Assembly: GCA_900299145.1 (NCBI GenBank)
Contig: OMIN01000089.1
Span: forward strand, 1-39,957
Reading direction: 5' to 3'
Source: Betaproteobacteria bacterium
GTDB taxonomy: Bacteria > Pseudomonadota > Gammaproteobacteria > Burkholderiales > SG8-41
Length of the DNA: 39,957 bases
A program made the translations under genes and the position numbers. Positions 5,212 to 10,852 of this stretch are shown here, piece after piece. Below the pieces are notes generated by a model. That model saw only the letters and a list, made by a program, of their open reading frames with translations, made no database searches and was not told the DNA's origin. Each line of letters begins with the position of its first letter. Positions within the stretch are counted from its first letter, which is position 1.

Positions 5212-6414
5212 ATGAAGTTACCGCTTGAAGGGGTCAAGATTCTTGACCTGACGCACGCGCTCGCTGGCCCGTTTTGTTCCACCATGCTCGCCGACTACGG
5301 CGCCGAAGTCATCAAACTCGAAGCCTTCGGCGCGGGCGACATCGCGCGCGGCTGGGGCACGCAGTTGCCCGGCGGCGAAACGGCGTATTTCGCCTCGCTC
5401 CATCGCAACAAGAAGGGCATTGAAATCAACCTCAAGCACGCGCGCGGCAAGGCGATATTTTTTGATCTGATAGAGCGCTGCGACATCGTGATCGAAAATT
5501 TTCGCGTCGGCACGCTGAAAAAGCTCGGCCTCGATTACGACAAGGCGAAGGCGCGCAACCCCGGCATCATCTACTGCTCGATTTCAGGCTTCGGCCAGAC
5601 CGGGCCGTACAAGGAACGCGCCGCGCTCGATCTGATTTTGCAGGCGGAAAGCGGCATGATCAGCGTTACCGGTGAGCCCGGCGGCCGCGGCGTGCGCTGC
5701 GGCGTGTCGATTGCCGACCTGACGGCAGGCCTGAACGCCGCGTTTGGCATCATGGCGGCGCTGCGCGTAAAAGAGAAGACCGGGCGTGGCCAGCAGGTCG
5801 ACGTATCGATGATGGAAGGGCAGATGGCGTTGCTCAACACGCTGATCGGCAATTACCTTGCAGACGGCAAGCTGCCAGCGCAAATGGGCACGGCTTATAC
5901 CGCGCTGACCCCCTATCAGACGTTTCACACCAAGACCAAGGATTTCGCACTGGCGGTGGGCAGTGAAAAGCTGTGGAAGACATTCTGCCCGGCCATCGGC
6001 CACCCGGAACTGATGGACGATCCGCGTTTCGCCGTCAATCCGCAGCGCACGAAAAATCGCAAAGTATTGATCGACACGTTGCAGGCGATTTTCATGGAAC
6101 GCACGTTCGAGGAATGGGAAACCCTGCTGCTCGGCGCCGGCATTCCGTTTGGCGCGCTCAACAACATCGCGCAACTGGTGGAGCACCCGCAGGTCAAGGC
6201 ACGCGGGTCGATGGTGGATATCGATCACCCAAAAATCGGCAAAACGCGCGTGGTTGGCCCGGTTGCAAAGCTCTCGGAAACGCCCGCCACCATCCGCAGT
6301 TTGTCGCCGTCACTCGGCGAACACACGGCGGAAGTGCTACGTGACTTTCTCGGCATGGATGCTGCGGCCATTGCCGGGCTGCGCGCGGACGGCGTGATTG
6401 CCGCCGAGAAGTAG
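5212..6414 (+). CDS. Family III CoA-transferase (CaiB/BaiF type)
   Basis: Moves coenzyme A between carboxylic acids through an aspartyl-CoA intermediate; the substrate pair cannot be told from sequence. At 400 residues it has normal family length. It opens with LEGVKILDLTHALAGPFCS and continues with the nucleotide-binding stretch ADYGAEVIKLE. The likely catalytic aspartate is in AALDLILQAESG (Asp140), followed by the family motif TGRGQQVDVSMMEG. It follows the sensor kinase by 52 bp and converges on the selenoprotein candidate, with only about 38 bp and one AT-rich repeat copy between the stop codons. CoA-transferases of this family are often multiplied in Burkholderiales and act in degradation of unusual acids. 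That would fit the many Bug receptors here, but the link is inference. Confidence 0.93.
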   Translation: MKLPLEGVKILDLTHALAGPFCSTMLADYGAEVIKLEAFGAGDIARGWGTQLPGGETAYFASLHRNKKGIEINLKHARGKAIFFDLIERCDIVIENFRVGTLKKLGLDYDKAKARNPGIIYCSISGFGQTGPYKERAALDLILQAESGMISVTGEPGGRGVRCGVSIADLTAGLNAAFGIMAALRVKEKTGRGQQVDVSMMEGQMALLNTLIGNYLADGKLPAQMGTAYTALTPYQTFHTKTKDFALAVGSEKLWKTFCPAIGHPELMDDPRFAVNPQRTKNRKVLIDTLQAIFMERTFEEWETLLLGAGIPFGALNNIAQLVEHPQVKARGSMVDIDHPKIGKTRVVGPVAKLSETPATIRSLSPSLGEHTAEVLRDFLGMDAAAIAGLRADGVIAAEK

Positions 6415-6419
6415 CAACA

Positions 6420-6446
6420 CAACTATTTGTTTTTATTGATATTTTT
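6420..6446 (+). repeat. Dispersed AT-rich repeat, copy 2
   Basis: Starts CAACTATTTG and continues TTTTTATTGATATTTTT. It lies between the convergent ends of the CoA-transferase and the selenoprotein candidate, starting a few bases after the CoA-transferase stop. Confidence 0.7.
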
Positions 6447-6452
6447 GCAAAC

Positions 6453-7013
6453 TCAAGACTGCTTCAGCGCAGTCTTGATGAGTTCCACCACTTGCGGAAT
6501 TGCCGCCAACGCGCGGCCCTCCACCTGTTCCAGCGACAGCCCGCCCAGCGGGTGCTCGATCATCACCAGCGGCAACGCCGGCACGCCAAACACGCGCGCC
6601 TGATTTTTGCCGAGGCCGCGAAACGGCTCGGAGCACACCACCGCCGTGGTCAGACCACGTTTTGCGAGTTGCGTCATGTCGTGGACACTCCACGACGTGC
6701 ACGCGCCTCAATCGGCCATGGCGGAAATCACCACGTCCGCCTCGCGCGCCAGTTGATCGAGAATGTCCGTCGGAGCTGCCAGCGACACAATGGGCTTGCG
6801 CGCAAACGACACTGAAGCTAGGGGCACTTCCTTCTTCACGCCCTCGACAATCATGCGCAGCAGGTGATCGGCATTGCCCTTGCTGTTGTCGAGCACGCCC
6901 AGACGCACGCCTTTGCCTTCCATCGTGCCGGCGCGCCGCTGCGTGGCCTTTGCATCCGCCACCGGCGCCGGTGCGGGCGCCGCCGGTATGACCAGTCTTA
7001 CCGTTTCATTCAT
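6453..7013 (-). CDS. UGSC-motif family selenoprotein candidate (in-frame TGA read as selenocysteine)
   Basis: If read only to the first stop, the gene ends at TGA 6708-6710 with ...DVVISAMAD. The same frame continues for 84 more codons with no other stop, giving Sec-G-A-C-T-S-W-S-V-H-D-MTQLAKRG and then LTTAVVCSEPFRGLGKN...IEHPLGG. As I recall, this matches the UGSC-type (seleno)protein family, in which Sec or Cys precedes Gly-Ser-Cys; here the motif is U-G-A-C with Sec at position 102 of 186. The start chosen is the ATG at 7013 (MNETVRLVIPAAP), with GCGAGG just upstream. An alternative in-frame start at 7046 adds 11 residues. The Sec-x-x-Cys pair suggests thiol/selenol redox chemistry, but the substrate is unknown. 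No sel genes are in the window. Alternative reading: a Cys-type gene broken by a nonsense mutation. The hairpin after the TGA argues against that. Confidence 0.8.
6454..6477 (-). terminator. Hairpin at the 3' end of the selenoprotein candidate
   Basis: A perfect 9-bp inverted repeat (CAAGACTGC and GCAGTCTTG, 6-base loop) overlaps the last codons of the minus-strand gene. It is well placed for transcription termination between convergent genes. No clear T-run follows on either strand, so it may instead be a 3'-stabilising structure. Confidence 0.4.
6678..6710 (-). promoter_or_regulatory. Bacterial SECIS-like element after the in-frame TGA
   Basis: On the minus strand the TGA (6710-6708) is followed by an 11-nt spacer and then a perfect hairpin: GTCGTGG (6696-6690), loop AGTGT, CCACGAC (6684-6678). 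The stem starts at +12 and the loop at +19 after the TGA. From memory, the E. coli fdhF SECIS apical stem and GGUC loop occupy about the same positions, and both loops place G-U at +20/+21. Unlike fdhF there is no bulged U in the stem. SelB recognition is inferred. Confidence 0.65.
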
Positions 7014-7649
7014 GATATGCCTCGCCTCGTGTGCCTGAACGCACATATTGCACGTGTCGCACAGGTTGAATTGTCAGGTGCTTCGCACTTCGTTGTCTGG
7101 TGCAGGGTGTTTCGTAATTGCCGACCCTGCAATTGTGACACGTGTAACACCGGGGCGGCTGTTCGCGCAGCGCATCCCATGCGGGCGCACTGAAGTGTGG
7201 CCTGCGCGCGTGCCGCGCACCGATAGGGCGCGCTCACCGGCCACGCCATGCCACACAGCCGGCCGAAAACCCGACGCCGGCGCTCCAAGGCCGGCCGATT
7301 GGGAACAATTTGGAACGACTGGGAGTGAAATGGGTTTTTCTTGCGGCAGATCAAGGCGCGCACCCGCGGCGCGGTCACGATATTCCGGCAGGTTGCACGC
7401 TTCTTGCTGGAATCTCCAGGAACCGGCCAATTTCCTGCTGCCGGCACTTTATTGAATACGTCGTGAATAAAGTCACACAACCCCGCGTGAAAATATCACA
7501 GCGCGCACGAACTAATCGTACGCGTCACACGCCGATTTGCCATGATGGAGGCGAGACAAAACACAACCCGCTGCACCGGCCACAAACAAAAAGCAGACTC
7601 GAAGACACCGGACGTCAACCATAACTGATCGCAAAGAGACGAGACGAAT
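7014..7649. other. 636-bp intergenic region between divergent genes
   Basis: No convincing gene was found; the open frames here have implausible composition. It must carry the promoters of the minus-strand selenoprotein candidate and the plus-strand LuxR-type gene. Two related boxes, GCACGTGTCGCAC (about 7050-7062) and GTGACACGTGT (about 7135-7146), form a weak inverted pair that could be an operator. Just before the LuxR gene, GAGACGAG precedes the ATG as a plausible ribosome-binding site. Confidence 0.4.
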
Positions 7650-8528
7650 ATGGAACACACATCCCTGGTCACGACTTCCATGCCAACGCGCGATATTTCA
7701 TCTTCAACTGCCCAAGGCAACGCCGCCCTTACGCGGGCGCAATCCCGCCTGGAGCAGGCCGCCACGGCACAGGATGACAGCGAGCGCTTCATGCGCATTG
7801 TGCAGGCCACCAGTGCCGTTGTCAGTCACTACGATCTCTTCATTTTCCTGCAAAGCAAGGTGCAGCACTTCATTCCGCACCAGATCATGCTCGCCGCGTG
7901 GGGTGATTTTCGCGGTGACAGCCCGAGGTTCGACGTGGTGTCGGCGCTGCCGGGCGTGCGCACCGACGTGCTCGCCGACTGCGGCATCGAGCACATGCTG
8001 AAAAACTGCTATCACCGATACATCTCCGGTGGCCGCAAGCCGCTGCGGCTGGAGAGCCCGCTGGCGGGCATGGAACGGCACGTCAGCTGCAACTGTGCGC
8101 TGCACGCGGCGATGAAAAACATGCGCTCCATCACTGTATTTGGCGTGCGCAACGAGCGTGACAATCAGGATGCCCTCTATATCGCCATGCACCCGAAGGG
8201 ATCGAGACGGGCGAAGTGCGACGAGTATTTCGCCTTTCTGGTGAACTCGGTGGTGTCGCAAATCGACGTGGCATTCCGCAAGGTTGCGGCGCTCAAACGC
8301 CCCTGCACGGAGGCGCCGGCCAGCATCCCGCTGTCGCTCGGGCAGTTCAGCGAACGCGAACACGAGGTGCTGCACTGGCTGGCGCAGGGCAAGTGCAATT
8401 CCGAGATCGCGGAAAAGCTCAACATCAGCGCGTTCACTGTCAAGAATCACGTGCAGCGCATTTACAAAAAGCTGGCCGCAGGCAACCGCACCGAGGCGGC
8501 GGAAAAATACCGGCTGTTGAACGCGTAA
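7650..8528 (+). CDS. LuxR-family transcriptional regulator, EpsA-like
   Basis: DNA-binding regulator of 292 residues. The C-terminal ~60 residues are a clear LuxR helix-turn-helix: FSEREHEVLHWLAQGK, then NSEIAEKLNISAFTVKNHVQ and RIYKKL. The N-terminal ~210 residues (FLQSKVQHFIPHQIMLAAWGDF and following) resemble the sensor region of the EpsA regulators linked to PEP-CTERM/exosortase exopolysaccharide loci, and not an acyl-homoserine-lactone domain or a receiver. No exopolysaccharide or PEP-CTERM gene is nearby, so the EpsA name is tentative and its targets are unknown. It is monocistronic, with long hairpins right after the stop codon. The start ATG has GAGACGAG upstream. Confidence 0.85.
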   Translation: MEHTSLVTTSMPTRDISSSTAQGNAALTRAQSRLEQAATAQDDSERFMRIVQATSAVVSHYDLFIFLQSKVQHFIPHQIMLAAWGDFRGDSPRFDVVSALPGVRTDVLADCGIEHMLKNCYHRYISGGRKPLRLESPLAGMERHVSCNCALHAAMKNMRSITVFGVRNERDNQDALYIAMHPKGSRRAKCDEYFAFLVNSVVSQIDVAFRKVAALKRPCTEAPASIPLSLGQFSEREHEVLHWLAQGKCNSEIAEKLNISAFTVKNHVQRIYKKLAAGNRTEAAEKYRLLNA

Positions 8529-9877: not shown

Positions 9878-10852
9878 TTGACTCTCGCGGTGTTTGCCAC
9901 GTTCGCCACGTTCGCTACGTTTGGCGTTCCAGCCATGGCGTTGGCGCAAGATTATCCCAACCGTCCGGTGCGTTGGGTGCTGGGTTTCGCACCCGGCGGT
10001 TCGCCCGACTCGGTGGCACGCATTATCACACCTCAACTCACGGCGCAGATGGGCCAATCCGTAGTGCTCGACAACCGGCCCGGCGCGAACGGCATTCTCG
10101 CCGCCGACATCGTGGCAAAGGCAAACCCGGACGGCTACTCCGTGCTGATTACCTCCGGCGCGTTCGCCATCAACCCCAGCATCGTGAAGAAGCTGCCGTT
10201 TGACACCGTGAAGAGCTTCGAGCCGGTCACCAACATCTGTTCGTCTGAAGCGCTGCTGCTGGCCATCAACCCGGCGGTGCCCGCCAACACCGTGCAGGAA
10301 CTGATACAACTGGCAAAACGTCCCAACGCAAAATTCGCCTATGGCACGTCGGGCGTGGGCAACGTCACGCATCTGGCGGCGGCGCTCTTCGCGGTGCGCA
10401 CCGGCACGCAACTCACCCACGTGCCGTATAAGGGCGGCGGGCCGATGACGGTGGCGCTGATGAGCGGTGAAGTGCAAATCGCGATATCCAATCCCGGCAC
10501 GCTGCTCCAGCAGGTGCGCGCCGGCCGACTGCGCGCGCTGGCCTACAACGCGCCCACGCGTTCACCGCTGCTGCCCAACGTGCCGACGATGATCGAAGCC
10601 GGCGTCACCGGCATGGAATTCGATTCAAGCTGGTACGGCGTATTCGCCCCTGCCAAAACACCCGCTGCCATCGTCAACCGGCTGCATGGCGAAATCCGCG
10701 CCGCGCTGAAAGTGACAGCTGTGCGCGAAAGCCTGGCCGCCATCGGCATGGAACCGGTCGGCAACACGCCCACCGAGTTCAAGGGATTTGTCGAAAAATC
10801 CATCAAACGCTACGCTGAAATCGTGAAGATAGCGGGGATACAGCCGGAGTAA
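9878..10852 (+). CDS. Bug/TctC-family periplasmic solute receptor, start uncertain
   Basis: Second orphan carboxylate-binding receptor, 324 residues from a TTG at 9878. The body is typical: YPNRPVRWVLGFAPGG, VLDNRPGANGI, PDGYSVLITS, THVPYKGGGP. The leader is a signal peptide ending AMALA, cut before QDYPNRP. The TTG start gives a leader with no positive charge. The same frame upstream reads RTIRAAL, an ideal n-region, but has no start codon before a TAA at 9830. The nearby ATGs at 9834 and 9855 are in other frames. Either the start is non-canonical or a small deletion has shifted it. Three 9-bp tandem repeats (ACGTTCGCC-like, 9898-9924) encode FATFATFATFG in the hydrophobic core. Confidence 0.85.
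   Translation: MTLAVFATFATFATFGVPAMALAQDYPNRPVRWVLGFAPGGSPDSVARIITPQLTAQMGQSVVLDNRPGANGILAADIVAKANPDGYSVLITSGAFAINPSIVKKLPFDTVKSFEPVTNICSSEALLLAINPAVPANTVQELIQLAKRPNAKFAYGTSGVGNVTHLAAALFAVRTGTQLTHVPYKGGGPMTVALMSGEVQIAISNPGTLLQQVRAGRLRALAYNAPTRSPLLPNVPTMIEAGVTGMEFDSSWYGVFAPAKTPAAIVNRLHGEIRAALKVTAVRESLAAIGMEPVGNTPTEFKGFVEKSIKRYAEIVKIAGIQPE

Follow-up and report, generated by a model that had tools for sequence, protein, structure and literature searches.

A well-supported UGSC-family selenoprotein gene in a betaproteobacterial genome, and a tentative two-part enzyme reading of its expanded family

The locus and its in-frame TGA

The window analysed in this study (the whole stretch of 39,957 nucleotides) carries on its minus strand a short gene interrupted by an in-frame TGA, which lies between a convergent CoA-transferase gene and a divergent regulator gene. 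The features referred to below are as follows, in order of position:

5212..6414, plus strand: family III CoA-transferase (CaiB type), convergent neighbour (PF02515, 430 bits)
6453..7013, minus strand: predicted UGSC-family selenoprotein gene coding for 186 residues, Sec102 among them; start codon ATG at 7011-7013, stop codon TGA at 6453-6455; read-through translation matches NF041046 and PF24696
6453..6455, minus strand: terminal TGA without a hairpin behind it (internal control: same codon as stop)
6678..6696, minus strand: bacterial SECIS hairpin; arms 6690-6696 and 6678-6684, loop AGUGU 6685-6689, GU at 6687-6688 (+20/+21)
6708..6710, minus strand: predicted Sec codon TGA (U102 of U-G-A-C); same TGA at 10 of 11 loci and in 19 of 19 own copies
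7020..7023, minus strand: GAGG, putative ribosome-binding site, 6 nt upstream of the start codon, judged from the sequence
7650..8528, plus strand: LuxR-type regulator, divergent neighbour (PF00196); same order in L072
8702..9790, minus strand: TctC/Bug solute receptor (PF03401)
9878..10852, plus strand: TctC/Bug solute receptor (PF03401)

When the internal TGA is read as selenocysteine (Sec), the gene forms one open frame of 101 codons, the TGA, 84 sense codons and the terminal TGA at 6453-6455. Its start is shared by the relatives L072-L079, which begin at the Met corresponding to the window ATG. The preliminary description of this locus had claimed that the 84 stop-free codons after the TGA complete a UGSC-family protein, which was confirmed by the read-through translation: it exceeds the curated cutoffs of both family models, NF041046 (130.5 bits vs 125) and PF24696 (145.1 bits vs 25), each in a single stretch spanning the TGA. 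The active site is U102-G-A-C105, with the TGA at the Sec/Cys column of the family and Cys at U+3, as had also been described. In an alignment of 38 sequences (A1, composed of the 19 UGSC genes of the window's own genome, eight of the 10 named loci found with the window protein and 11 of the 30 family loci read at the site), the U column is invariant (38/38) and Cys stands at +3 in 37 rows. The literal U-G-S-C motif is absent from the window gene; the family is named after it, and curated membership goes by score. The earlier remark that the motif is U-G-A-C and not U-G-S-C is correct as a reading and marks no peculiarity, since seven of the 10 named loci share UGAC.

We put the probability that the window gene is a selenoprotein gene and a member of the UGSC family at about 0.95, and Sec is almost certainly inserted at the UGA at 6708-6710. 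The proposal of a "probable new UGSC-type selenoprotein gene" stands as far as the selenoprotein gene is concerned; its novelty is confined to this single gene, as the UGSC family is already in the literature and in NCBIfam.

A hairpin maintained downstream of the TGA

A perfect 7-bp hairpin with a 5-nt loop had been noticed 12 nt past the TGA, and it was recovered as such (loop AGUGU, first pair at +12/+30). Its spacing had been likened to that of the E. coli fdhF element and a G-U at +20/+21 noted in its loop; the K-12 fdhF record has GT at the identical positions after the UGA. The window hairpin differs from that of fdhF in having an uninterrupted stem of 7 bp and in its stability, folding over the same span giving -12.6 kcal/mol for the window and -5.7 kcal/mol for fdhF. 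It falls within the published limits for bacterial SECIS elements (loop of 3-9 nt, stem of 4-16 bp, G in the first two loop positions, spacing of 16-37 nt and MFE of at most -7.5; PMC13188914), with a stem of 7-8 bp, a spacing of 18-19 nt and a value of -11.1 kcal/mol when the hairpin is folded alone. An Rfam search of positions 6400-7050 gave no match up to an E value of 5.

The same rules were passed at 85 of 89 Sec sites, namely 17 of 19 in the own genome, all 30 family loci, all 10 named loci and 28 of 30 in the relative G050 (the 30 best-scoring of its 58 matches), compared with 391 of 4251 non-Sec codons (9.2%) of the own and G050 genes. Among the own copies, C29 satisfies the rules only with a bulge, and C110b departs from them, has no proper hairpin and carries Ser at the +3 Cys (U-G-S-S). 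When each peptide was recoded with the codon usage of the 19 own UGSC genes (2000 samples), the stability of the window hairpin was equalled in 0.3% of the synonymous recodings. A P value of 0.022 or less was obtained for 15 of the 19 own copies, and the four that did not stand out were C29 (0.054), C100 (0.15), C110b (0.62) and C44 (0.90). Applied at four further offsets within these genes, this null gave mean z values between -0.48 and 0.15. The long UGSC copies of the own genome have a different peptide after Sec, yet the hairpin is formed in most of them.

Covariation was examined in 62 distinct sequences from 82 genes, a set that left out seven long-class own copies. Across these 62 sites, 97.5% of the stem cells are paired, compared with 15-50% when one arm is slid by one to three bases. 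The observed value was reached by none of 1000 shuffles, a figure that is no probability because the sequences are related. The outer stem pair is G-C in 51 sequences, A-U in five, G-U in one and C.C in five. In four of the five A-U rows, the change from G-C involves third codon positions in both arms, ACG becoming ACA (Thr) and GAC becoming GAT (Asp). The pair that closes the loop is G-C in 45 sequences, C-G in 16 and G.G in one. On these patterns of pairing and codon choice, the hairpin is under selection.

Conservation of the TGA and of the codons beyond it

Queried with the window protein, the GTDB genomes returned 11 loci, at 10 of which the TGA and the hairpin are in place; the eleventh (L082) is partial, no in-frame TGA was read in it, and it stands outside the counts of 10. 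The records are mostly titled as Burkholderiales, Betaproteobacteria or beta proteobacterium MAGs, with one Rokuibacteriota. Two records titled Bordetella parapertussis (L079) and Chitinophaga pinensis (L077) hold UGSC and partner genes near those of betaproteobacterial MAGs, and these species titles look wrong.

The dN/dS ratio fell from 0.275 before the TGA to 0.092 after it in comparison with L072, and from 0.281 to 0.097 in comparison with L073. A much lower ratio past the TGA was seen only against these two; the gap was smaller against L074 (0.224 before, 0.191 after), L075 (0.186, 0.129), L076 (0.364, 0.317) and the own copy C111 (0.405, 0.400), so that in these four comparisons, too, constraint on the part after the TGA is no weaker than on the part before it. 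In all six comparisons the ratio after the TGA was below 0.41, and the codons after the TGA are, by this measure, under purifying selection. It is highly improbable that the TGA is a normal stop or arose by nonsense mutation or sequencing error, with the remainder of the gene a remnant. TGA does serve as the terminal codon of the window gene itself; the recurrence of the internal TGA and its hairpin at 10 of 11 loci, the presence of exactly one in-frame TGA, at the same site, in all 19 own copies, the low dN/dS past the TGA against L072 and L073 and the covariation of the hairpin all argue against such a remnant.

The expected exchange of Sec and Cys at this column was also found. An intact homologue from another family of the phylum (L130) has TGC (Cys) at the Sec column, and its hairpin region reaches only -4.0 kcal/mol. 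A second homologue (L129) likewise has Cys there and is damaged at other places, where it has an in-frame TGA and an interruption of the frame; three other homologues beside these two in distant genomes have TGA. In the ocean survey of 2008, 255 Sec and 21 Cys forms of UGSC were reported (PMC2398784). A family search with at most eight candidates scored per genome placed UGSC in five of 398 genomes of the phylum, the own genome included. A degenerate DNA pattern for Cys forms found none in the 398 genomes, a null result that is weak because the family is present in only five of them, and this pattern could not have matched the Cys form of L130. Within the window's GTDB family, all 74 genomes gave a match; every match listed has one TGA, 30 were read at the site, and no Cys form occurs among the matches listed.

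Selenocysteine machinery

The window's assembly (5.5 Mb, 99.7% complete) encodes the complete Sec machinery, the absence of which had been named as a refutation of the proposal. The tRNA-Sec gene (selC) lies at C110:66482-66572 (74.5 bits), and ARAGORN agrees, with anticodon tca. The selA gene (568.4 bits, cutoff 267.9) is just upstream of selB (442.7 bits), and a thioredoxin-reductase-like gene scoring 231.4 bits, below the cutoff of 343.45, sits between selB and the tRNA-Sec gene. On a separate contig, selD was identified with 422.6 bits, or 428.8 bits when read through its TGA (cutoff 125). This selD gene (C129:8959-9888, L053) has one in-frame TGA of its own, so that selenophosphate synthesis would require its own product. 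In the region C110:59997-66572, a UGSC-partner fusion gene stands head to head with the cluster of selA, selB, the thioredoxin-reductase-like gene and tRNA-Sec, its longest-ORF start being a few dozen nt from that of selA.

The frame is open whatever residue stands at the TGA, and in principle reassignment of the codon or leaky read-through might insert Trp or Cys instead of Sec. This is scarcely credible given the dedicated selA, selB, selC and selD, the terminal TGA of the window gene with no hairpin behind it (MFE 0.0) and the Cys form L130, which also lacks the hairpin. Decoding as Sec is strongly supported: as in the known bacterial Sec system, SelB with Sec-tRNA would bind the hairpin at 6678-6696 and decode the UGA at 6708-6710 as selenocysteine. 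The product would be a 186-residue protein in which Sec opens a helix and is followed by Cys three positions later.

Expansion of the UGSC family

The 19 UGSC genes of the own genome comprise 13 with UGSC, two with UGAC, two with UGTC, one with UGGC and one with UGSS. The UGSS copy (C110b, C110:32769-33266; L063 14698-15306) has lost the resolving Cys and kept its frame and its partner, and is a decaying or unusual Sec site. Across the 74 genomes of the GTDB family, UGSC matches range from one to at least 45 per genome, and four relatives chosen for their high counts gave 35, 36, 40 and 58 matches when searched again. These counts come from draft assemblies, in which a mixture of strains could have raised the numbers.

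The genome with 58 matches (G050; 98% complete, 2% contamination, 330 contigs) has 51 matches with one TGA and no other stop, three with a TGA and another stop, and four with none. The TGA was confirmed at the Sec site for 30 of the 51, and the 30 genes examined read UGSC (15), UGGC (12) and UGAC (3). Of the four stop-free matches, two are partial and miss the site, and two are long forms. The latter (C76:16708-17226 and C80:22300-22671; L163, L164) are UGSC-type with a partner domain and by eye have neither Sec nor Cys; the C80 copy is below the family cutoff. They are possibly non-catalytic paralogues.

We know of no expansion of a single selenoprotein family larger than that of UGSC. A survey of more than 5200 genomes counted 33 UGSC selenoproteins in 26 organisms (PMC5029168). 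The window gene resembles the family described there and in the models NF041046 and PF24696 in exceeding both cut-offs, in its UxxC site, in the use of Sec with rare Cys forms and in the bacterial SECIS after the UGA; it differs in reading UGAC, in being one of 19 paralogues and in having no adjoining partner. The largest bacterial selenoproteomes given in a 2026 review comprise 57 and 63 genes, the latter in a MAG attributed to Deng 2026 (PMC13188914). Should the radiation prove real, some of the largest selenoproteomes known would belong to a lineage that the pertinent passages of that review do not list as selenoprotein-rich, and the review's statement that selenoprotein-rich organisms are predominantly anaerobes of a few groups would call for re-examination.

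A partner domain fused to or beside UGSC genes

In nine own copies, UGSC is fused to a C-terminal domain (WSDGLPIVPPT...) of 327-386 residues, which gives proteins of about 550-635 residues when measured from stop to stop, and eight others lie directly beside a separate gene for this WSDGLP partner domain (309-372 residues), so that the partner is fused or adjacent in 17 of the 19 own copies. It is also adjacent at 28 of 30 family loci (L041 and L047, where it is missing, are truncated at the end of a contig), at eight of the 10 named loci with the TGA and at all five UGSC loci in four distant Pseudomonadota genomes. It was found in none of 20 control stretches (210 kb; one stretch of only 991 bases). 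For the family loci, the named loci and the control stretches, partners were sought by tblastn with six stand-alone partners as queries. In G050, 63 partner matches were counted, fragments included.

The partner has one nearly invariant Cys. No model of Pfam or NCBIfam describes it: all 18 partner sequences gave at best an E value of 0.044 against Pfam, with five families matched in one member each. Our comparisons revealed no kinship of the partner with GrdB or PrdB sequences. A fusion of UGSC to a conserved domain of unknown function, "Unknown_1", was drawn from ocean reads in 2008 (PMC2398784, Figure S1A). Unknown_1 is probably the partner domain of the nine fused own copies; the window copy differs from that fusion in being unfused. 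The pertinent passages of the 2008 paper make no mention of separate neighbouring partner genes, of GrdB kinship or of large UGSC copy numbers.

For the window copy, no partner is encoded in the window or anywhere on its contig (C89), and adjacent partners are likewise absent for its two nearest relatives, L072 and L073, and for the own copy C76. The own genome has 20 partner domains and one fragment, 18 of which are fused to or beside 17 UGSC genes; the remaining two are orphans. Hidden UGSC pairing of these two genes was considered and rejected, no UGSC frame being seen upstream. The orphan on C145 shares 66-67% identity with the C114 partners; the UGSC gene of C114 is the sister of that of C76, and C145 may therefore serve C76. 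The orphan on C78 is nearest to that of C110a, at 48%. Identity between the L074-L079 partners and that of the own C111 is 70-73%; neither orphan is close kin of these orthologues' partners, so that supply of a partner to the window copy in trans is no more than a possibility.

The window copy might have left the two-part arrangement and taken another role together with the convergent CoA-transferase, a reading that we regard as rather unlikely. It would suit the fact that the window gene, L072 and L073 form one clade with no nearby partner, and that L072 keeps the gene order for all 10 window genes checked, including a 96% identical CaiB-type gene beside the orthologue. Genes 60-62% identical to the window's CaiB type lie downstream of UGSC and the partner in L076, L077 and L079. 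Against such a role stand the 20 partner domains of the genome, including the two orphans, and the convergent orientation, which makes a shared operon with the CoA-transferase unlikely. A CaiB gene as a general UGSC companion was rejected, being present in two of 18 UGSC stretches vs five of 20 control stretches (genes named by eye). Under the two-part reading, the window copy would use a partner encoded elsewhere or act alone.

Remote kinship with Sec-dependent reductases

Matches to TIGR01917 (glycine reductase selenoprotein B) at E values up to 0.1 were obtained for 24 of the 38 UGSC rows (best 9e-6), to PrdB for nine (best 1.9e-7), to GrdF for seven (best 3.2e-7) and to GrdH for five (best 1.9e-7). 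The window protein itself reached GrdB only at an E value of 0.037, and unrelated families reached at best 0.012-0.015, with five rows each. In a profile comparison with hhalign, UGSC and GrdB-type sequences of the same bacterial family (three of four loci aligned) were matched Sec on Sec with a probability of 85% and an E value of 6e-6. The comparison with PrdB-type sequences (10 of 16 loci aligned) was weak, at 13.6%. The negative control, against the unrelated partner, gave 0.3%, and the positive control, GrdB-type against PrdB-type, gave 99%. By sequence comparison, UGSC is remotely homologous to the Sec domain found in the glycine, betaine and D-proline reductases.

This likeness is confined to one domain. 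The window protein scores 12.9 bits against the GrdB full-length cutoff of 602.2, with the Sec domain alone aligning, as it does for the glycine/sarcosine/betaine reductase selenoprotein B models in general (GrdB, GrdF and GrdH; TIGR01917, TIGR01918, NF040794, NF040795). It has 101 residues before Sec, vs 351 in the GrdB-type protein L083. PrdB (TIGR04483) and a PrdB-like protein of the own genome (C134) share with UGSC the UxxC site, the Sec domain and a TGA followed by a hairpin; the latter differs in reading UPNC and in having 247 residues after Sec, vs 84 in the window protein.

The predicted structure of the window protein (mean pLDDT of 91.4) is alpha/beta with five strand-helix repeats, and Sec102 lies between a strand (94-100) and a helix (103-118). 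The thioredoxin fold has a different order of strands and helices. Fold searches indicated a general alpha/beta architecture only, with flavodoxin, receiver-domain and PurE-like folds at similar scores, and no thioredoxin-fold protein was recognised among the best 50 matches, a result that weighs neither for nor against that fold; of the long form, effectively the N-terminal domain was compared. A sequence search of solved structures gave four matches with the UGSC alignment, none convincing (best E value of 0.2), and none up to an E value of 1 with the long-form alignment.

UGSC proteins were held in 2008 to be probably of thioredoxin fold (PMC2398784). They could accordingly be simple thiol-disulphide redox proteins, perhaps of that fold, for whose chemistry the partner and the GrdB kinship would be irrelevant. 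The U-x-x-C site is a classical redox motif, the partner has its one nearly invariant Cys, and the thioredoxin-reductase-like gene lies between selB and selC. We nevertheless consider this explanation doubtful in view of the partner fused to or beside most copies tested, the matches to the GrdB, GrdF, GrdH and PrdB Sec domains, the five predicted strand-helix repeats, the Ser in place of the resolving Cys in one own copy and the number of paralogues, which suggests many substrates.

Solute receptors and a proposed function

TctC/Bug receptor genes occur within 200 nt of 10 of the 19 UGSC units, compared with 19 of 136 control ORFs (p 3.5e-4; the distances were tried after the gene list had been seen). 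The corresponding values are seven of 19 vs 12 of 136 within 100 nt, and 10 of 19 vs 25 of 136 within 300 nt. Such receptors are frequent genome-wide, with 30 in the 210 kb of control stretches. Their raw number was set aside as evidence (41 genes in 15 of 18 UGSC stretches vs 30 in 13 of 20 control stretches), and closeness alone stands out. The window's own TctC genes lie farther from its UGSC gene.

Taken with the linkage to the partner, the GrdB/PrdB-type matches and the predicted structure, the closeness of TctC genes to UGSC units leads us to infer a two-part reductive enzyme acting on small imported organic compounds, of which UGSC would be the selenol subunit; we rate a chemistry like that of GrdB/PrdB as somewhat less probable than even. 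By analogy with the Sec domain of GrdB/PrdB, the Sec of UGSC would attack a small substrate held together with the partner, and the U-x-x-C pair would form a selenenyl-sulphide that is reset by a thioredoxin-type system. The chemistry of GrdB and PrdB is that of glycine, betaine and D-proline reductases. With the same reserve we propose, tentatively, that UGSC and the WSDGLP partner form a two-part selenoenzyme family remotely related to glycine and D-proline reductases, which in some genomes of this bacterial family would have radiated to dozens of copies, each unit tuned to a different small compound imported via neighbouring TctC receptors.

If this were true, the expansion of this one selenoprotein family would be unusually large, and one relative would near or exceed the 57- and 63-gene selenoproteomes (PMC13188914) mainly through UGSC. 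The window gene is by itself of modest interest, as one well-supported addition to a family that the pertinent passages of the 2026 review leave functionally uncharacterised (PMC13188914); the expansion and the partner without a model add interest. Its surroundings make the function testable, through the conserved partner, the remote link to Sec reductases of known chemistry and the link to solute receptors. In the passages of the UGSC literature consulted, we met no experiment on any UGSC protein and no mention of the expansion, the separate partner genes or the GrdB link; Haft and Tolstoy 2025 may already cover the neighbourhoods.

Other selenoproteins were observed in the same bacterial family. 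A PrdB-like second selenoprotein family, with UPNC and a long C-terminal extension, is present in many of its genomes (own C134:29001-29360, L094; L087-L102), and in all 16 loci read the TGA precedes a hairpin of -10.7 to -13.6 kcal/mol. Four relatives (L083-L086) encode GrdB/GrdF-type selenoproteins (UGTSTRCG, UGTCTRCG), with up to six PF07355 matches per genome when short ones are counted, and Ser replaces the second Cys in three of these four loci.
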